DNA of 25,729 nt. Origin: a virus. The stretch is from positions 1 to 25,729 of IMG/VR virus record IMGVR_UViG_3300043411_001248. One strand, given 5' to 3'. The notes beneath the pieces were generated by a model, which saw nothing but the letters and a program-made list of their open reading frames with translations, made no database searches and was not told the origin of the DNA. Position numbers and translations under genes: made by a program. Positions 4,748 to 24,622 of this stretch are shown here, piece by piece (position 1 is the stretch's first letter; each line of letters begins with the position of its first letter).

Positions 4748-5273
4748 TATAGATGTTTTTGATTTTTTCTAAAATCACACTATCAATATCCTTTTCTAAC
4801 TCATTACAAGCTAAAATCCTTAAGTTTCTTTCCTCAATAGATATTTTATCAATAGATGATTTAATTTTATCTAGTAATAGATCTTCATCATTTTTATACA
4901 TTTCATAAATAGACTTAATCTTGGACCTTTGATTATATAGGTTATTATTATTAGATTTGATCTCATCTATTTTATTGTCTATAACCTCCCAATTTAAAAT
5001 TTCACCTTTGAGATTTTCAAGTAATTTTATATCATTAGAAGATTTTTTATCATTCAATAGATCCATCAAAGCTTCTAAAAATAATTCTTTTCCGGCTACC
5101 TTCATTGTACCAGCTACTTGGTACCTTGTAACAGGACCATATGTCTGAACTCTTAAAAAATCGTTCATAAGGTTTAAAACTTTGACTTTAAAAATATCCT
5201 CTTCATTTATCTTCGCAACATTTTTACTTTCTTCTCCAACTGGAGAATTTGTATATTTTGAAAACTTCTTCAT
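4731..5273 (-). CDS. Hypothetical coiled-coil protein, 180 aa
   Basis: This unrecognised protein starts with a short polar leader (MKKFSKYTNSPVGEE). Residues 25-85 are mixed, and a long Lys/Glu/Ile-rich helical region (about 85-175) is likely to form a coiled coil. The leader is loosely like the capsid-targeting leaders elsewhere in the window (MKKF..., acidic pair near position 14-15), but it lacks the F-[IL]-x-E core, so I do not count it as one. The ATG overlaps the stop of the upstream DHH phosphoesterase gene (ATGA), so the two are probably translated from one message. No function can be assigned. Confidence 0.7.
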   Translation of the reverse strand: MKKFSKYTNSPVGEESKNVAKINEEDIFKVKVLNLMNDFLRVQTYGPVTRYQVAGTMKVAGKELFLEALMDLLNDKKSSNDIKLLENLKGEILNWEVIDNKIDEIKSNNNNLYNQRSKIKSIYEMYKNDEDLLLDKIKSSIDKISIEERNLRILACNELEKDIDSVILEKIKNIYINNLL

Positions 5274-7117
5274 GAATTATATATATTTTTGAACCTTTCA
5301 AATTTGGCAATTATTCTCTTATTATTGGTATCAATTGTTATACCAGACCTTTTGGTTGGTCTCATTCCCTTTCGAGATCCTGCATTTACAAATTCATCTT
5401 TATTGACTTTTGTATTTTGTCCGTCTTTATCGGAAAGATAGTATTCATAATTTTCATTGGTGTCCTGTCCCTTTAGTTCGATGTTTGTCTCAGCATATTT
5501 TATATCTTCTCCTGATTCAAATTTTTGGACTTTTTCCTTTAGATTATTAATGAAATCTCTAGCAATTTTTTTCATTACATCAGTGTATTTCTCAGTCTTA
5601 TAAACCTCCTTCAGATATTTTTTATCATATTTCATAAAATTGAACCCTTGGATATTTGTGATTGATGGATGACCTCCTGAATTTTTAGTTATTAGGTCAA
5701 TCAATGGTATTTTATATTTACTAAGAACTGATCTATTCTCTCCGTTCATCTTTTCATATGTTAAGTCCATATTCTTTCGTATTTCGTCATTTATTTGAAC
5801 CTTAACCATTTCCCCATTTTTGTTTTCATATATGCAATCTGCATAGAAAGCTTCTAAATCAGATGATCTAAATCCAACACCAACGTAATTTGGTCCCTCC
5901 TCTTTAGCCATTTTTTTCCAATCTTGCGAATATTCTAATTCCCTCTTTATTCCTTCGAGTGGTATGAACATTTTTGAAAAGTTATCAAATTGTGTTGATA
6001 TTATCTCTTTTGCAATTTCTCCAAGGTTTATATTTTTTAGCTTCTTCTCTTTAAAAGGATTACAACTTACTTGTATTAGTCCCATTGGCCATACTATGCA
6101 AATGAAATTAGCTTCAGGAAAATTTTTAAATGGAACATACCGATCATATGATCCTGGTTTAAACATGTTTCCACCACCATATTGTGATATTATTTTCGAT
6201 TCTTTGTCAAAATGGACACCCTTGGATATTTTGGATCCGGATTGTATGGCCGATCTATGTTTCCAGTTTGCGGGATCATATTCCTGTGCTTCCTCCTCAC
6301 CATCTAATTCAACAAATTTATAATTCTTCATTCTTTCAATATAATCTGAAAGATTTTTCATTAGGTCTTCTGGTTTTGCAAGCCTTCCTAATTTGTCTTT
6401 TGTTTTAGCAGAATTAACATAGTGTCTTATGTTATTAAATATGGAATATAAAGATGGGTTTGAATCTAAGACTAAACATTCTAGAAAATTTCTATTAATA
6501 TGATTGGTTTTCCCGTCTATACTTTTACATGATATTCTTTTATTTTTATAAGCTAATAAAAGTCTATTAACTATAAATCCCATCATGAATCGATTTTTTT
6601 CTCCGGATAGAGTTCTTTCAAATTTAAATATTGAGTTCTGGACATCTTCAGGTTTAATATCATGTGCTAGAAAATTAGCCGAATCGACTGTCTTGACTAG
6701 TTCAATATCTTGTGGAGTAAATACATCACTATATGATATTTCTCCTGATATGGTTTCAACATTCGACCTAGCGGGTTTGAAATATTTCGATTTGGTGCTA
6801 TCAGCTCCAATTTGCTTATCGTGGTGGTCTGATTGTATATGAAACATTGGCTTTCCGTGAGCAAAATCGCATAAAATCTTTAGAGTGTTTTCTTGTCCTG
6901 TTTTTACAGCAAATTCTTGTCCCCCATATTGAATTATGTGACAATCAATGGTATCCAAATCATAGTATGTTTTAAAAAAACTTTTAAGCGCTATAGCTGA
7001 GCAAATACCATCCAAATCTTTATGAAGCCATATTTCGCAGTTTTTGTAACCACGGACTACATTTTTCAGATTTCTTATCCCAACTTCTTCGTTTATAAAT
7101 GAAAGATACTTCTTCAA
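5270..7117 (-). CDS. DHH-family phosphoesterase with capsid-targeting-like leader
   Basis: This 615-residue protein belongs to the DHH superfamily of Mn-dependent phosphoesterases (RecJ, nanoRNases, cyclic-dinucleotide phosphodiesterases). Motif I is HKDLDGICSA (D34, D36), the DHH motif is SDHHD (D97, H98, H99), and a further acid lies in VDSANF near 144. KNSGGHPS near residue 485 resembles the DHHA1 substrate-binding GGGH motif. The start is TTG at 7117: an in-frame TAA immediately precedes it, and it yields the leader MKKYLSFINE, which matches the T4 capsid-targeting peptide MKTYQEFIAE in length and spacing. I infer packaging into the head with cleavage after E10. Whether the substrate is single-stranded DNA, short oligonucleotides or a signalling dinucleotide cannot be told from sequence. 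It heads a two-gene operon with the coiled-coil gene. Confidence 0.85.
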   Translation of the reverse strand: MKKYLSFINEEVGIRNLKNVVRGYKNCEIWLHKDLDGICSAIALKSFFKTYYDLDTIDCHIIQYGGQEFAVKTGQENTLKILCDFAHGKPMFHIQSDHHDKQIGADSTKSKYFKPARSNVETISGEISYSDVFTPQDIELVKTVDSANFLAHDIKPEDVQNSIFKFERTLSGEKNRFMMGFIVNRLLLAYKNKRISCKSIDGKTNHINRNFLECLVLDSNPSLYSIFNNIRHYVNSAKTKDKLGRLAKPEDLMKNLSDYIERMKNYKFVELDGEEEAQEYDPANWKHRSAIQSGSKISKGVHFDKESKIISQYGGGNMFKPGSYDRYVPFKNFPEANFICIVWPMGLIQVSCNPFKEKKLKNINLGEIAKEIISTQFDNFSKMFIPLEGIKRELEYSQDWKKMAKEEGPNYVGVGFRSSDLEAFYADCIYENKNGEMVKVQINDEIRKNMDLTYEKMNGENRSVLSKYKIPLIDLITKNSGGHPSITNIQGFNFMKYDKKYLKEVYKTEKYTDVMKKIARDFINNLKEKVQKFESGEDIKYAETNIELKGQDTNENYEYYLSDKDGQNTKVNKDEFVNAGSRKGMRPTKRSGITIDTNNKRIIAKFERFKNIYNS

Positions 7118-14682: not shown

Positions 14683-16263
14683 ATGAGAGTTTCTAATAGG
14701 ACATATATAGGAATTGTTGAAGATAATAACGATCCTAGGAGACTGGGAAGATGTAGAATAAGGGTGTTTGATGTGTTTGATGGATTGCCACCACAAGATA
14801 TTCCGTGGGCTACGCCATGGAAGGATCTAAATGGAAATCAATTTATTCTGCCCGAGGTCGGTAAGGTTGTAACTGTTGTATTTGATTCAGAAAATATTTA
14901 CAAACCAGAATATATCTATTCAGATAACTATAATATTAATTTGGAAAATAAACTTAAAAAAATATCTGATGTAGCTTACTCTTCTATGAGAACTCTTTTA
15001 TTTGATCATAAAACCCAAATATATTCAAATGATGATGAGGGCCTGATGATAGACTATAAATTTAATCATGTTAATATGACAGATAGTACTATTAACATAT
15101 CTCTTAAAGATAATTATGGTAAAGTAAATATTGGTGATAAAACAGCCGATCAAGAATCCATCTTGGGTACTAATTTTTTAGCTTGGTTTGATGAATTTGT
15201 AGATTCTCTTTTGGGACATCGTTCTGGTCCCTATTTCGATAGTAAGGGGGCTCCTGTTGTAGCGAGTCCAGATTTCATATCTCTGTTAAGAAAATACAAA
15301 GCTCAAAAGCAACCAAAGTTTTTATCTAAAAATGTATTCTTGAATAGTAATCATCAAATAAACACCGTTAGACAAAATTCTGATTTTAGAGAGACCCTAA
15401 TGCAGTTAGGAGACTCGTGGAAGTCAACAAAAGTTAAAAATTATATCTACTCGGATGACGTCCCTGATTATTCTCCAAAATATGGTACAGGGGAAGAAAC
15501 ACCTGTTTCTACAAATGCATCAAATGATATAGTCAGTTTATCAACTAGTGATGAGGATCAAAATGTTGAATCAATCGTTGAATTGCCAACAGTTGGTGAG
15601 GTGAATCCAGATGTCCAGAAGATACTTAATGCTATGGAATCTAAAAATTATAAAATTATTGATAAACCATACTATATAAATGTAGTTGCGATAAGAGATC
15701 AGTATGAGGGAGATACATATTCGAATCAGTTTAAAGATAGAATGTGGGCAATATGGAAAAATTCTGAAGGATTATGGGAATTTAATTCTTGGGCCATATC
15801 AACAATTCCTGGTTTATATATGAATTTTAAAAATAAAATAAAAATGAAGACATGGTGTAAATCAAATAGGCCTAAGGGTTTAGGTATTTTAGTTCCAGCT
15901 CAGTATCAAAATATTTATAAATTTTTTGAAGCAGAGGAGCCTAAAAATCTGACTAAGATGAAAGCGAGGCCAACATTTCGAAGTATTAATAGTCAATTAG
16001 CATATCGAGATAAATCATTTGAAAGTGATATAATTTCTTTTTCAAATAGAGAGAATCCCGAAAAGGGCAATCATGGAATGTTCATACACCGAGGATTTCC
16101 AGGTGGATCTCTAGTAAATAATTGGTCTGAAGGATGTCAAGTATTTTCAAGAGAGAGTGATTATGATCAATTATGTGAGTTAGCTAGGAATCATATTAAA
16201 ATGCATGGAAATTCTTTTGACTATACTCTAATGACATCTAAGGATATCGACTCAGCGTCTTAA
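14683..16263 (+). CDS. Baseplate central spike protein: gp5-like OB fold plus C-terminal YkuD-like (SxGC) domain
   Basis: Residues 5-80 match the N-terminal OB domain of gp5/gpV-type spikes: YIGIVEDNNDPRRLGRCRIR, PWATPWKDLNG, then PEVGKVVTVVFD. The middle (80-330) is less clear. Residues about 340-520 resemble a phage family with a YkuD-like L,D-transpeptidase/carboxypeptidase layout: WAIWKNSEGLWEFNSWAIST, a PGLYM segment, GILVPAQYQNIYKF, then GMFIHRGFPGG (H469) and WSEGCQVF (S482, C485), ending with GNSFDYTLM. His plus Cys in SxGC would be the catalytic pair acting on peptidoglycan peptides. No T4-type lysozyme domain is present; the glycosidase is in the hub gene instead. The gene is 15 nt downstream of the tube-like gene and overlaps the convergent gene by 12 nt. 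Confidence 0.75.
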   Translation: MRVSNRTYIGIVEDNNDPRRLGRCRIRVFDVFDGLPPQDIPWATPWKDLNGNQFILPEVGKVVTVVFDSENIYKPEYIYSDNYNINLENKLKKISDVAYSSMRTLLFDHKTQIYSNDDEGLMIDYKFNHVNMTDSTINISLKDNYGKVNIGDKTADQESILGTNFLAWFDEFVDSLLGHRSGPYFDSKGAPVVASPDFISLLRKYKAQKQPKFLSKNVFLNSNHQINTVRQNSDFRETLMQLGDSWKSTKVKNYIYSDDVPDYSPKYGTGEETPVSTNASNDIVSLSTSDEDQNVESIVELPTVGEVNPDVQKILNAMESKNYKIIDKPYYINVVAIRDQYEGDTYSNQFKDRMWAIWKNSEGLWEFNSWAISTIPGLYMNFKNKIKMKTWCKSNRPKGLGILVPAQYQNIYKFFEAEEPKNLTKMKARPTFRSINSQLAYRDKSFESDIISFSNRENPEKGNHGMFIHRGFPGGSLVNNWSEGCQVFSRESDYDQLCELARNHIKMHGNSFDYTLMTSKDIDSAS

Positions 16264-16602
16264 TATACATTTTAATTTAATATCTCTCCGAACATCAGGT
16301 GGTAAAGTATTTAATATTTCACCAAATGATTTTATGTTATAAATGTTGACGCAACTAAATATACAACGCTCCAAAGGCTTTTTGCCCCATTTGGACAGTG
16401 ATTTGTAATCTAGAGTAAATATAGATAGAGATTTTTTAGAAACAATTGCTCTAATCTCAAACTTTGGATTGATTTTATATACATAGGTCCATTTCCAATT
16501 GTTTTTAGAAGAGTCTTGAACATATCTAGACTCTTCTGGGTCCCAAATCAAATTGGGGGACCTTTCAAATCCAGATTTTAATAATCGATTATTAATGTTC
16601 AT
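16252..16602 (-). CDS. Hypothetical protein, 116 aa
   Basis: I do not recognise this protein. It has a compact alpha/beta look: a WDPEESRYVQD stretch, strands around KWTYVYKINPKFEIRAIVS, and a basic C-terminus (RRDIKLKCILRR). Three Trp and several Tyr in the first half suggest a binding surface. Its start overlaps the stop of the C-terminal helicase gene (ATGA), so it is the last gene of the helicase operon, and its end overlaps the spike gene by 12 nt on the opposite strand. Linkage to the helicase hints at DNA metabolism, but this is positional only. Confidence 0.6.
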   Translation of the reverse strand: MNINNRLLKSGFERSPNLIWDPEESRYVQDSSKNNWKWTYVYKINPKFEIRAIVSKKSLSIFTLDYKSLSKWGKKPLERCIFSCVNIYNIKSFGEILNTLPPDVRRDIKLKCILRR

Positions 16603-17597
16603 AAATTGATTTTTGTCACTTTATATGGATATTTTCTTTTCTGATAAAACTTTTCTCTTTCTTTGAAGTGATTAAATAAAATATTCTTCATATTTTCAGA
16701 ATCGAACACATCAACTAAATCAAATATTATAGCTGTTTTTTTATCTTCGTGGAGTCTAAGGGCTCTTCCAATTGATTGAATTATTATCTGCTCTGATTTA
16801 AAGGAGTCAGCAAATATAACATTAAAAATGGATGTTATTGATACCCCTGTTGATAGTGTACCAAAAGAGGCTATTAATATTTTAGTTTTTCCACTCGTAT
16901 CTTCCATGAATGATTTAATTTCTTCTCTAGTCTTATTTCTTACTTCACCATCAATGTAGAAAAAATCTTTATCAATTTTGTCTTTCAATCTTAGGAATAT
17001 TTTCTGACCATACTCTATCGTGTGGAATAGTATAAGTGTATTTTTATCACATTTTTCAACGAGTCTTATTATCAACTCCATTCTCTTTTCGGAATTATGA
17101 ATGAAGTCTTTTTCCAATTCTAGAGCTTCTTTGCCCATCCCTCCCTTTTTTATAATATCTAACCTTGATTGGTAATCGGAATCATTGTGATTCAAAATCA
17201 AAGCTTTGATTTCCACGGGAGAGATTATTCCCTTATCTCTTAATTCACTAGCCGATACTTCTGTTATTTTTGGACCCAACACTGATTGAATTGTGAGTAT
17301 TTCACAAGAATCATCTGGTGGAAATGTGCCCGATACTCCGAATCTAGAGTATGCTGTCCTAATTGTTTTTTTAAGAATTGAAATTAGCGTTTTGCTTTTA
17401 GCCCCGTGAGACTCGTCGACAGCTATTGTGTGAAATTTTTTAAAAAACTCTTTAGGCCATTTTTCGAGAGATTGATATGTTCCGATGCATATATTTGGAT
17501 CATCTCCACCATCATAAAATCTAGGTTTGTCTGACATAACTTCCTCAATTCGAATTTCTTTGTGGATTTTTATTTTAGATACTCTTTTAATTTTCAT
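16599..17597 (-). CDS. uvsW: UvsW-type helicase, C-terminal part (motifs II-VI), split gene
   Basis: This 332-residue protein contains the second half of an SF2 helicase of the UvsW kind: IGTYQSLEKWPKEFF, motif II VDESHG (D61-H64), motif III SGTF, motif IV LILFHTIEYG, motif V ILIASFGTLSTGVSI and motif VI QSIGRALRL. Walker A and motif Ia are absent here and lie in the gene at 18474-19202; the two together (574 residues) have about the size of T4 UvsW. Residues 1-15 (MKIKRVSKIKIHKE) are a basic strand-like lead-in before the conserved RIEEVMSDKPR. UvsW remodels branched DNA and recombination intermediates. The ATG lies inside the last codons of the endonuclease gene, with an 11-nt overlap, suggesting coupled translation. 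The two halves would have to assemble to work. Confidence 0.85.
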   Translation of the reverse strand: MKIKRVSKIKIHKEIRIEEVMSDKPRFYDGGDDPNICIGTYQSLEKWPKEFFKKFHTIAVDESHGAKSKTLISILKKTIRTAYSRFGVSGTFPPDDSCEILTIQSVLGPKITEVSASELRDKGIISPVEIKALILNHNDSDYQSRLDIIKKGGMGKEALELEKDFIHNSEKRMELIIRLVEKCDKNTLILFHTIEYGQKIFLRLKDKIDKDFFYIDGEVRNKTREEIKSFMEDTSGKTKILIASFGTLSTGVSITSIFNVIFADSFKSEQIIIQSIGRALRLHEDKKTAIIFDLVDVFDSENMKNILFNHFKEREKFYQKRKYPYKVTKINL

Positions 17598-18477
17598 TTA
17601 AAATTTCCTTTTTTAGAATAGATACAATACTATCTATAGATGATATTCTTATCAACTTTATATTATTTTTATTGCAATAGTCATTTTTTGTCTTGTCCCT
17701 CATTTTAATTTTTTCAAATCCCTCGTCCCCTCCGAACCATTTTGTGGCGACGTAGTGTTGCTTCCCGTCAAATTCTATGCAAGTTTGTAGATTTGGTATC
17801 CAAAAATCAAAAACGAGATTTTTTATATGAAAACAGTCCTTGAAGATATGTTGGGGTATAAATTCAATTTCATTTTCTTCAAGGAAATTTAATATTCTCC
17901 TCTCTCCTAACGACATACTACATCTTGAGCATCGCGATCCTTTTAAATGGGAATGTGGGCTTAGTCTAAAATCGCCATGGATGGGACATGTTATTATAAT
18001 TGGGGTATTTGAGTTTACATAGATTGATTTATCGTAATTATAGTAATTGGAGTGTTTGATGTTGGACCTATCTATAAATTCTTTTAAATTAAGCTTCCTT
18101 GATCCACCACATTCTGGGCACCCAAACCCATTATAGTGGGAATTAATCCTTTGAGTAAAGTGTCCATGGATAGGACATTCTATATCTATTTTCTGTTTGT
18201 TTGATAGATAATAATTTAAATTGTATATATACTTATGATTGTGTTTTTTATTGAGATCGTTAATAACTTCATCAACACTCTTTCTTCGAATGTCAAAATC
18301 ACATTTTCTACATCCTCTTCCCTTTAGATGATTACTAAGAAGTTGAATGAATCCACCGTGGATAGGACATATGATTGTGACTCTATCTCTTGTTTTTACC
18401 TCATCGTTCCATAGAGTGTATCCAAATTTATCCCCATGTACAATTTTAGATTTTTTTATTGCCTCGCTCTTTTTCAT
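17587..18477 (-). CDS. Homing endonuclease with three CPxHG zinc-finger repeats and a PD-(D/E)XK/Vsr-like nuclease domain
   Basis: This 296-residue protein starts with three copies of a CPIHG-x-F ... H ... G-x-x-C-x-x-C unit: C37/H40...C56/C59, C101/H104...C120/C123 and C164/H167...C183/C186, likely zinc-binding DNA-contact modules (DUF723-like). Residues 190-290 form a nuclease domain: GERRILNFLEE, LVFDFWIPNL (D224), IEFDGKQHY (E235, D237, H241) and RDKTKNDYCNKNNIKLIRI. This resembles Vsr-like/EDxHD homing endonucleases such as I-Bth0305I. It sits exactly between the two halves of the uvsW gene, with its ATG overlapping the stop of the N-half and its end overlapping the start of the C-half by 11 nt. 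It therefore looks like a mobile gene that has settled inside the helicase and become part of the operon. Confidence 0.85.
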   Translation of the reverse strand: MKKSEAIKKSKIVHGDKFGYTLWNDEVKTRDRVTIICPIHGGFIQLLSNHLKGRGCRKCDFDIRRKSVDEVINDLNKKHNHKYIYNLNYYLSNKQKIDIECPIHGHFTQRINSHYNGFGCPECGGSRKLNLKEFIDRSNIKHSNYYNYDKSIYVNSNTPIIITCPIHGDFRLSPHSHLKGSRCSRCSMSLGERRILNFLEENEIEFIPQHIFKDCFHIKNLVFDFWIPNLQTCIEFDGKQHYVATKWFGGDEGFEKIKMRDKTKNDYCNKNNIKLIRISSIDSIVSILKKEILNEN

Positions 18478-19202
18478 AGTTCATCATTTTCATTCAATTC
18501 CTTGGCTTTTATTATTCCTCGGTTTATTGTCACAATATCATCATCTGGATTAAATTCTCTTATAGACCCATCTTCCATTTCAATTTCTATTTTATAATCA
18601 TATATATTATTGATATTATTTCTACCGTAATAAAACTCAACAATAGAATCATAAAATTGAGTAACAAGAGTTATTGATGGTACGATTATCAATAATTTAG
18701 CATTTGGATCAATTTTACTTATAGTATAGAAGTATACAATTGATATTATCAGGGTTTTTCCTCCACTTGTGGCAACTTCAGCAAGACAAAATCTATTTTT
18801 GAGTATTTTAAAAGCAGATTCGATTTGATGATCATATGGAAAAAATGAAATCCATTCTCCTGATTTGTTTTTTATTTTGTGATTTTTGAAAAATTCTTTA
18901 CAAAATTCCCTAACCGACTCAAGAGTCACCTCTCTATTTAAGGGGAAATCTTCTTTATTATCTACAATAAAGGAAGCTCCAATTTCTTGACACCCTCTCA
19001 AACATTCTTTCCAAAGACCTAGGCTAATTCTACCATTATTAAAATATGATTGTTTGCCATTCCAAACTCCCATCTTAAATGCTGGCATGAATCTATATCC
19101 CTTTATGTGCCTCGTTAACCAAAGATTTAGTTGATGATACTCTATACGCGTTGATTTTGTTACAATAAATTCTTCAGATTCTTTATCATATCTAAATCTC
19201 AT
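18474..19202 (-). CDS. uvsW: UvsW-type helicase, N-terminal part (motifs I and Ia), split gene
   Basis: This 242-residue protein is the first half of UvsW. The N-terminal substrate-recognition domain shows GYRFMPAFKMGVWNGKQSYF; motif I is AEVATSGGKT (Walker A ending at K149-T150); motif Ia is LLIIVPSITLVTQFYDS. After YYGRNN the sequence departs from the helicase pattern: residues about 201-242 read IEMEDGSIREFNPDD, then VTINRGIIKAKELNENDEL, which is similar to the middle part of a Hint/intein fold. It ends in TGA overlapping the ATG of the endonuclease. I chose the ATG at 19202 because the UvsW fold begins there; a longer frame from 19289 adds 29 low-complexity residues spanning the likely promoter. 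Confidence 0.85.
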   Translation of the reverse strand: MRFRYDKESEEFIVTKSTRIEYHQLNLWLTRHIKGYRFMPAFKMGVWNGKQSYFNNGRISLGLWKECLRGCQEIGASFIVDNKEDFPLNREVTLESVREFCKEFFKNHKIKNKSGEWISFFPYDHQIESAFKILKNRFCLAEVATSGGKTLIISIVYFYTISKIDPNAKLLIIVPSITLVTQFYDSIVEFYYGRNNINNIYDYKIEIEMEDGSIREFNPDDDIVTINRGIIKAKELNENDEL

Positions 19203-20432: not shown

Positions 20433-21059
20433 TTACTTTATAATTTTATCTATTATCCCATACTCTAAAGCATCTTTGGCTGATAGCCAATAATTTCTAT
20501 CTGAATCCTTCAAAACTTTACTATATTTTTGATTTGTTTTCTCAGATATTATTTCACACAATTCTTTCTTTAGGAGATTTATCTCCTTTGCTTCAATTTC
20601 CATGTCTGATGCTTGCTGAATATCAGCCCCATAGAGTAGTGGTTGGTGAATCATCGTCCTACTTCTCTTAAGAGCTTTCCTTTTCCCTTTTGTACCAGAG
20701 CATAGTATTATAGCTGCCATCGACGCAGCTAATCCGGTATTTATAGTTATGATGTCTGGTTTGACATATTCCATAATATCCAAAATTCCTAACCCATCAT
20801 ACACAGAACCACCTGGAGAATTTATATAAATTGTTATATCTTCTTCCTTGTCAAGACTTTCTAAGTATAAGATTTGTGATTTTATCACTTCAGAGGTATA
20901 TAAATTTATTTCTCCAGAAAGAAATAAAATTCTATTCAGAAGCATTTTATTAAAAATATCACTATATGGATTATTTGATTCCATGTCCATTGATGAAATT
21001 ATCGATCTCGGTAAATTCGATCTAGACCATTTTATATAATCATTTTTATGTTTACTCAC
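20433..21059 (-). CDS. clpP: ClpP-like protease with Asn in place of the catalytic Asp, 208 aa
   Basis: The full ClpP fold is present at normal length: YINSPGGSVYDGLGILD (oxyanion strand), GLAASMAA with nucleophile S113, SRTMIHQP with H138, and a C-terminal AKDALEYGIIDKII. The third triad residue lies in DSDRNYW: aligned with cellular ClpP (D-[ST]-[DE]-R-D-x-[FW]), the catalytic Asp is N189, encoded by AAT. Listeria ClpP1 is known to have the same Asn and to work mainly in mixed complexes with a second ClpP, so a mixed complex with host ClpP is possible here. The start is GTG at 21059; the next in-frame ATGs (residues 24 and 26) would remove a basic N-terminal tail. No ClpX/ClpA partner gene is in this window. 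Confidence 0.9.
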   Translation of the reverse strand: MSKHKNDYIKWSRSNLPRSIISSMDMESNNPYSDIFNKMLLNRILFLSGEINLYTSEVIKSQILYLESLDKEEDITIYINSPGGSVYDGLGILDIMEYVKPDIITINTGLAASMAAIILCSGTKGKRKALKRSRTMIHQPLLYGADIQQASDMEIEAKEINLLKKELCEIISEKTNQKYSKVLKDSDRNYWLSAKDALEYGIIDKIIK

Positions 21060-23020: not shown

Positions 23021-23478
23021 TCTATCTATCATTCGTTTTTGTATTAGTATTTGCTGTGTGGTGTGCGTGGCAGGATGCTTATGATATCGCTTTACATAAT
23101 ACAATCAATCATAAAGAGTCGTGGATAAAAAGAGCGATAATAACAATGATATTTATTACAATCCTCTCTTTGGTTGATAAAAAAACAATCCTAGAGTCTA
23201 TAATTGTATTGATTGGGTGTGCTGCTCTTTTTAGTGTGGTTTTTAGATCTAGTTTAAACTTAATTCGAAAGCTTGACTGGAGATATATGGGCACAGGATC
23301 TTGGTATGATAGAATATTCATTACTTTATCATCTAAAAACAAGAACAAGTCCTTTATTAATGACTTACCAAAGCTCTATAATCAAGACGATCCTATATCA
23401 ATAAATATTATCCATAAATCTGGGTCCATGGCGACAATATTTGAAATTTCAGTTATTATACTATCTATAATATTTTAA
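23017..23478 (+). CDS. Multi-pass membrane protein, 153 aa
   Basis: About four hydrophobic segments are visible: residues 1-19 (MIYLSFVFVLVFAVWCAW), 39-54, 58-77 (ILESIIVLIGCAALFSVVF) and 138-153 at the very C-terminus. A soluble loop of about 55 residues (85-137) contains LDWRYMGTGSWYDR and KSFINDLPKLYNQDD. The family is not recognised. It overlaps the preceding membrane-protein gene by 4 nt, and its 3' end overlaps the primase gene by 14 nt on the other strand. Possible roles are membrane remodelling, a holin-like function or superinfection exclusion; the sequence does not choose between them. Confidence 0.65.
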   Translation: MIYLSFVFVLVFAVWCAWQDAYDIALHNTINHKESWIKRAIITMIFITILSLVDKKTILESIIVLIGCAALFSVVFRSSLNLIRKLDWRYMGTGSWYDRIFITLSSKNKNKSFINDLPKLYNQDDPISINIIHKSGSMATIFEISVIILSIIF

Positions 23479-24622
23479 CGAATTTTTTAAATTTATCATT
23501 TTTGGGAATCCATCTGATATCTAACATATCTTCGCTAAAATACTGAGGAAGATCTAGTTTTTGATAAGCATTAGGCACTATCTCATTTAATTTATTCATG
23601 TCTTTTACTTTGGATATTCTATACAGTAATTTATCAGGATCTTGATCTTTTTTCTTTTTAACAATATCTTCGAATAGTTTTTTCCACAGAAAAATTCTGC
23701 CTCCTTTACGAATTTTTTCTTCAGATTTTTTAAATCCCGCTACATCGTTGTCAAAGAAATATTGGATCTCTAGATTTTGATTTTCTATAGTTCTAAGGTC
23801 TGTGTTTGTTCCCACCACACCAATTGAATTAGGATAAAACAAGGAATCTAAATATCCTTCAAATATTGTTATAATTTTAGAAAAGTCTACATTTAGTATA
23901 TTAAAATAGTAAGATATTTTATTGTATATAATGGATTCGTTCATATCTAAATCAACATCATCTCCATTGACCCATCTATATAATGATTCCCAATTGTATA
24001 TTAAAAAAAACCTTTTCTTACCCCCTTTTAGATTTCGAACCTGAAGGCCAAGAACTCGATCCCCCCTTCTATTTAATAATACGATTATATGCTCGAAATT
24101 TCCATCATCCCCCTTTGAAAATTTAGCTTGATAAATATTTGTATGTAAATTATCGGGTATTCCTCTTCCAATGAGATACTTATGAATTCCTGATCCTTTG
24201 GAGATTGGTTTGAAATCAAAAATTGGGGTTATATTATTTGGACCATTGAATAGGCTTTCTAAATCTTTTAAACTTATCAACTTCTCTAATCCTATTTCCG
24301 ATAAACTCAGATCGAAGTCTTTATATTCAATAACCGAATTCAAATGGTTAATGATTTCCATTTTTTTACTCGGATCTAATATCTCATTAAAATCTTTAGA
24401 TAATTTATCAAAAGATGTTTTTTTATCACAATTAAAACATATATAGAAGAGCTTATTGAAATATAAGTTTCCTCTTTTCTTATATTCGTTGTTGCTGTCC
24501 CCACAATATGGACATGCTAAATTTAATCTATCTTCATAGTCAACGATCTTTCTTTTACTAGAAGAAGTGAAAGATTTATCAAGTATCCTTTGTACTATAG
24601 ATTTTATATAAGACTTATCCAC
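23465..24622 (-). CDS. DNA primase, T4 gp61-like, 385 aa
   Basis: The N-terminal zinc-binding domain shows CPYCGDSN (C37, C40) and CFNCDKKTSF (C62, C65). A primase core follows with HKYLIGRGIP and RRGDRVLGLQVRN, then a Toprim domain: ITIFEGYLDS (E255), GTNTDL, YFFDNDVAG (D291, D293) and DQDPDKL. This is the layout of T4 gp61 and related phage primases, which make RNA primers for lagging-strand synthesis together with the replicative helicase. The start is GTG at 24622 and the stop is TAG. No helicase domain is fused, so a separate gp41-type helicase should exist elsewhere in the genome. Confidence 0.85.
   Translation of the reverse strand: MDKSYIKSIVQRILDKSFTSSSKRKIVDYEDRLNLACPYCGDSNNEYKKRGNLYFNKLFYICFNCDKKTSFDKLSKDFNEILDPSKKMEIINHLNSVIEYKDFDLSLSEIGLEKLISLKDLESLFNGPNNITPIFDFKPISKGSGIHKYLIGRGIPDNLHTNIYQAKFSKGDDGNFEHIIVLLNRRGDRVLGLQVRNLKGGKKRFFLIYNWESLYRWVNGDDVDLDMNESIIYNKISYYFNILNVDFSKIITIFEGYLDSLFYPNSIGVVGTNTDLRTIENQNLEIQYFFDNDVAGFKKSEEKIRKGGRIFLWKKLFEDIVKKKKDQDPDKLLYRISKVKDMNKLNEIVPNAYQKLDLPQYFSEDMLDIRWIPKNDKFKKFVKIL

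Follow-up and report, generated by a model that had tools for sequence, protein, structure and literature searches.

A split uvsW helicase gene with a homing endonuclease gene and intein-derived tags at the break

In a 25.7-kb viral fragment (IMG/VR record IMGVR_UViG_3300043411_001248; hereafter the window, meaning this whole stretch), the uvsW helicase gene, which matches uvsW of huge phages (the relatives reach 642 kb), is divided into two genes by a complete homing endonuclease gene (HEG), and each half carries a short extra peptide at the break, the N-tag and the C-tag. We consider it probable that these parts form a mobile cassette, in which remains of a former split intein dock the two UvsW halves onto each other non-covalently, the HEG provides for homing, and translation reinitiates between the open reading frames (ORFs).

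Architecture and recurrence of the split

All three genes are located on the minus strand. The first one, uvsW-N (18474..19202, 242 amino acids), encodes the N-terminal domain and the first half of RecA domain 1 with Walker A (ATSGGKT) and motif Ia, and ends in the acidic, intein-derived N-tag (18477..18620; 48 amino acids, NNINNIYDYKIEIEMEDGSIREFNPDDDIVTINRGIIKAKELNENDEL; net charge -8). The last one, uvsW-C (16599..17597, 332 amino acids), starts with the basic C-tag (17559..17597; 13 amino acids, MKIKRVSKIKIHK; net charge +6), which corresponds to the first strand of a C-intein without its terminal His-Asn. It then encodes the remainder of RecA domain 1, beginning with motif II (DESH), and RecA domain 2 (motifs III-VI), with SGT as motif III and with motifs V-VI present as well. 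The complete HEG (17587..18477, 296 amino acids) lies in between. A preliminary description of this DNA had already placed such a gene between motifs Ia and II, and its coordinates and motif placement were confirmed, as were the two overlaps that it named. One of them is the 4-nt ATGA (18474..18477, minus strand) formed by the uvsW-N stop and the HEG start, which is common to all four split lineages described below. In the other one (17587..17597, minus strand) the 3' end of the HEG (TTTTAAATGAAAATTAA) supplies the start codon of uvsW-C; this overlap comprises 11 nt in the window, L044 and L150 and 29 nt in L187. The coupled translation proposed from this layout is probable.

Both halves were identified as SF2/UvsW-type helicase by Pfam and PHROG. 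DEAD and Helicase_C were matched, and the UvsW_N match (24.7 bits) is just under the cut-off of 25.3. The identity to unsplit relatives is approximately 60-74%. There is one uvsW copy in a 116-kb contig of a split relative and also one in unsplit relatives of 635-642 kb. The helicase motifs are intact in all four split lineages, and with ratios of nonsynonymous to synonymous changes (pN/pS) of 0.23-0.33 the helicase cores are under purifying selection.

The comparison comprised about 50 distinct uvsW genes of relatives, the majority of which are uninterrupted at this site. The same break is present in three further lineages (L043/L044, L150 and L187), and this recurrence puts the split far beyond chance. 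In L057 and L179 (with close copies), uvsW is a single ORF without HEG, in which the same extra residues are fused in line. In total, six lineages carry the tags, four of them split and two fused. In the light of these tagged genes without HEG, the earlier statement that the split looks fixed was too strong.

The 48 and 13 extra residues, which the preliminary description had missed, are absent from most unsplit relatives. The comparison with unsplit uvsW genes that it had recommended revealed the borders of the cassette and the replacement of the native linker, which has 14-38 residues in the relatives, by the tags in the carriers. L044 and its near relative L027, the latter uninterrupted here, share about 99% identity as far as the edge of the cassette, their homology restarts at residue 16 of the C-half, and the comparison of L150 with L153/L122 gives nearly identical borders. 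The window, L043/L044 and L057 are placed separately in the uvsW tree. This match up to the cassette, the similar borders of L150 and the scattered carriers are what a mobile cassette would leave behind. The earlier picture of a HEG between two helicase genes is therefore correct, but not that of a bare HEG insertion, since intein-derived tags were inserted as well.

A 9-mer, AATGAAAAT, had also been pointed out at both ends of the intervening segment. It is indeed present at both places, and joining the two copies leads to a stop (...KAKELNEN*). However, since it occurs five times in the window with 3.8 copies expected by chance, and since the other split phages do not conserve it at their N-side junction, the repeat carries no weight. 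This makes the argument built on it moot, and excision mediated by the repeat was rejected for the same reasons.

Intein homology of the tags and loss of splicing residues

The N-tag of the window aligns with the N-intein of L027 over 37 residues without gaps (z = 6.5, 0 of 5000 shuffles) and the C-tag with the start of the L027 C-intein (P = 0.008). Averaged over four real split inteins, z is 6.7 for the N-tag and 4.7 for the C-tag, compared to -0.5 and 2.3 for the corresponding native linkers and about 0 for the tails of the phage Aeh1 enzyme discussed below, which were included as controls. Since a Pfam scan of the single tags gave no intein match, profile-profile and fold tests were used. 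The six tags matched the four genuine split inteins of sister phages in hhalign (95%, E 3e-8), and the first match of the tag profile in an hmmsearch against all PDB sequences was the NrdJ-1 split intein (E 1e-3). The N-tag covers only residues 53-93 of IntN, roughly the last 40 residues of the N-intein. The fused insert of L057 was modelled with AlphaFold2 with a predicted local distance difference test (pLDDT) score of 82-89 over residues 11-60; the best 26 Foldseek matches of this model are all intein or Hint-domain structures, and it superimposes on 6bs8 with a root-mean-square deviation of 1.2 Å over 52 columns. One full-length alignment (A4) put the tags in the wrong place and was left out of the folding. 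A search for the tags beyond uvsW led back to uvsW loci only. To judge from these comparisons, N-tag and C-tag together represent the central part of a split intein.

The residues required for splicing are gone. The N-terminal nucleophile (Cys1) with block A and the C-terminal His-Asn followed by Cys, Ser or Thr are absent in all six tag-carrying lineages; the His of TxxH in block B is missing as well, as NP(D/N/G)(D/E) or KPND replaces GNH in all tags, and the C-tag of the window continues directly into the native EIRIEEVMSD. The succession of half gene, HEG and half gene and the partial intein sequence might still recall a functional split intein that ligates the halves by trans-splicing, i.e. 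a fractured gene sensu Dassa et al. (2009), and L027, L105, L110 and L145 do have real split inteins with HEGs at motif II of their uvsW genes. However, since Cys1, the block-B His and the terminal His-Asn are all missing, and no carrier has a +1 nucleophile, trans-splicing is excluded on sequence grounds; this reading must be regarded as refuted already, and we hardly give it any credence, having ruled out an active split intein among the candidates. It is just as improbable that the gene is repaired at the RNA level by intron splicing or that the split is an assembly chimera or a sequencing artefact, for none of which we found a supporting point. RNA splicing, which the preliminary description had wanted to see checked, left no signal, as no group I or group II intron structure was matched by Rfam in the window, and the ORFs overlap by 4 nt and 11 nt. 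The identical architecture in the independent contigs of L043/L044, L150 and L187 also speaks against these readings.

Possible role of the tags and exchange of the endonuclease gene

Split inteins associate via the acidic second lobe of the N-intein and the basic C-intein. The parts retained in the tags are those by which split inteins associate, and this is the main reason why we prefer docking over an inert scar. We envisage a cassette of N-tag, HEG and C-tag that is located in the length-variable linker of RecA domain 1. A single message would yield the three overlapping ORFs via termination-reinitiation. The former split intein would have lost its splicing ends, so that the acidic N-intein lobe remained on one half and the basic first C-intein strand on the other, and these tags would clip the halves together without a covalent bond and thereby restore the helicase. 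The HEG, in turn, may cut uninterrupted uvsW alleles and be copied in together with the tags, and it could later be lost or replaced by another HEG without loss of the tags. That the two halves have to assemble, as previously stated, holds true also here.

The conservation of the tags is consistent with such a role. The N-tags of the window and L187 are 77% identical with a pN/pS of 0.17, compared to 64% and 0.27 for the helicase cores, i.e. the N-tag is more constrained than the core in this pair. The tag identity between the window and L044 was reached by none of 2000 neutral simulations. N-tag and C-tag carry opposite net charges in all four split lineages (-8/+6, -3/+3, -5/+4 and -5/+4).

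It is also possible, although we regard it as rather unlikely, that the tags are inert scars of a dead intein which merely cap the new ends, and that the halves assemble via their own RecA-domain interface, like those of ordinary split proteins. The wide variation in native linker length (14-38 residues) implies that extra residues are tolerated at this site, and the fused tag of L057 is less constrained. Inert scars would not be expected, however, to reach the identity and the low pN/pS of the window/L187 tags, to keep open frames and opposite charges in four lineages, or to outlast the HEG. Even less likely, and in fact quite improbable, is that uvsW is being lost, with non-functional halves and a locus that is merely a landing site for HEGs. 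HEG insertions can inactivate genes and the window is a fragment on its own, but all helicase motifs are intact, the core pN/pS is low and the overlaps are conserved across the four lineages.

Several points weigh against our preferred reading. The pN/pS values of the other tag pairs are 0.47-0.82, with small synonymous counts. The Foldseek E-values are only about 0.1 each, modest because the domain is small, and were obtained with the fused L057 insert as the query and not with the window pieces. Likewise, the Hint fold is only partial and is seen in the fused L057 protein rather than in the two pieces of the window; the tags keep just a part of this fold, and binding without the missing pieces might be doubtful. 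The C-tag homology is weaker because this tag comprises only 13 residues. Since a complete intein capable of splicing was not found at precisely this uvsW site, the split-intein ancestor is one that we infer. Moreover, the halves could assemble through the RecA sheet alone.

The HEG product consists of zinc-finger repeats and a C-terminal nuclease-like domain (FDFWIP..IEFDGKQHY..RDKTKNDYCNKNNIKLIRI). It matches DUF723 (Pfam) and PHROG 559/9084, and residues of the FDF-P-E-DG-QH-D-K type are kept in all four HEGs. A sequence comparison of the window HEG with the PDB gave no relative; it is a candidate Vsr-like (EDxHD) homing endonuclease. It is 37-41% identical to stand-alone HEGs such as those of L077 and L023 and 32-36% identical to the other three split HEGs (L044, L150, L187), which share 52-55% identity with each other. 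By these values the window HEG falls on a different branch from the other three. Since its tags nevertheless match (77% with L187), the tags are retained while HEGs are exchanged.

A stand-alone HEG of the same family is located directly upstream of an intact uvsW in L022/L023 (L023 3228-4091). The 3' end of this HEG (ATTTTAAATGAA) extends over the start codon of uvsW in the manner seen for the window HEG and uvsW-C, and the layout is plausible as a donor arrangement.

Known systems, further uvsW fractures and neighboring genes

A search of the literature, of partial coverage, found no earlier report of a uvsW gene split by a HEG. The closest counterpart is found in Aeromonas phage Aeh1. The tails of its split enzyme are reportedly essential for activity and are said to act as interaction domains; it is also said that tails left by a mobile element were proposed, from this one enzyme, as a possibly general neutralizer of gene fracture. 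In this nrdA-a/mobE/nrdA-b locus (Friedrich et al. 2007; Crona et al. 2011, NAR 39:1381; both as cited in passages of PMC10448857 and PMC3267527, see also a passage of PMC2988022) an essential T4-type gene is likewise interrupted by a HEG. Both halves possess a start and a stop of their own, the extra tails are not found in unsplit homologs and are oppositely charged, and the HEG overlaps the downstream half. In contrast to uvsW, however, another gene and another HEG family are involved, and the Aeh1 tails have no intein similarity (z about 0), whereas those of uvsW are recognizable intein pieces. Furthermore, the uvsW case recurs in at least four lineages and has fused forms without HEG.

The fractured genes of Dassa et al. 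(2009, as cited in a passage of PMC10448857), in which split inteins are combined with a free-standing HEG, share the order of half gene, HEG and half gene, the intein sequence on both ends and a break where inteins carry their endonuclease. The uvsW tags differ in having lost all residues for splicing together with the outer parts of the two intein halves, so that no ligation is expected. The uvsW split would work like Aeh1 and has the layout of the genes of Dassa et al., but it is without the splicing features of the latter and has tails of another origin than the former. In the T4 gene 39/mobA/gene 60 region, a replication protein is also split in association with a HEG and its parts assemble, but no intein-like tags are reported for T4 in the relevant passages of PMC3014915 and PMC2988022.

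With uvsW, the idea of Crona et al. gains a second case, which is recurrent, concerns another gene and has tails whose origin can be identified, so that the idea can be tested directly. Capture without splicing is also suggested as an evolutionary exit of split inteins, which could be useful as an association tag.

The uvsW gene of huge phages is a hot spot that is broken in three ways. One further fracture lies at motif II (DE|C...SN|CH), where complete split inteins with Cys1, a TxxH-type block B and a terminal Asn before Cys flank a different free-standing HEG (L027 2980-5837, L105 3632-6499, L110 3629-6360 and L145 1317-4351).

The other one lies near motif V, outside the window, and is accompanied by another tag. 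It is gapped in L032 (5836-5926), L034 (5835-5925), L035 (C-half start just before 6100), L039 (6841-6931), L069 (2487-2576), L097 (3516-3606), L110 (6370-6473) and L121 (6070-6163), and an open frame without gap is present in L093 (4542-4877). The C-half starts with MA(K/R)I(I/V)DKR..ATKVLVASY, immediately followed by a stop, a gap of 4, 6, 7 or 17 nt and the conserved GTLSTGVSI. The codon preceding GGN is TAC, GAC, TAG or TAA, near the take-off TAY. A strong hairpin is located directly upstream in the eight gapped genes; over all nine genes 98.8% of the cells are paired, and two pairs are changed on both sides. By analogy, gaps and hairpin suggest programmed translational bypassing as in T4 gene 60, where 50 nt are bypassed; this similar-looking feature concerns another uvsW site of the relatives and not that of the window. 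In a passage of PMC3014915 (2010) bypassing is said to appear unique to gene 60.

The N-tag at motif V (KVEYTILNFGDYEIEFKSD..ILLSDG..KKA.DI..DDIDD) is present in L034 (5652-5822) and others, and is fused without HEG in L033 (5652-5921). It aligns to inteins with z of 4.0-5.5, and the 14 best Foldseek matches of the L033 model (pLDDT 61) are inteins. A comparison of small profiles gave no significant match between the tags of the two sites. We tentatively suggest, with somewhat more hesitation than for docking in the window, that a split intein minus its catalytic ends may become a non-splicing clip, which would allow a core phage gene to be broken by HEGs again and again, and the HEGs to be exchanged, without harm. 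The same would have happened at the second uvsW site of related phages, so that such a clip may be a general way to survive gene fracture.

Next to the split gene, a 116-amino-acid ORF without family match (16252-16602) overlaps the uvsW-C stop with its start (ATGA, 16599-16602) and a convergent gene (14683-16263) with its 3' end. The window further encodes a weak DHH-domain protein under the Pfam cut-off (5270-7117), a ClpP-type protease/head-maturation protease (20433-21059) and a DNA primase (23465-24622).
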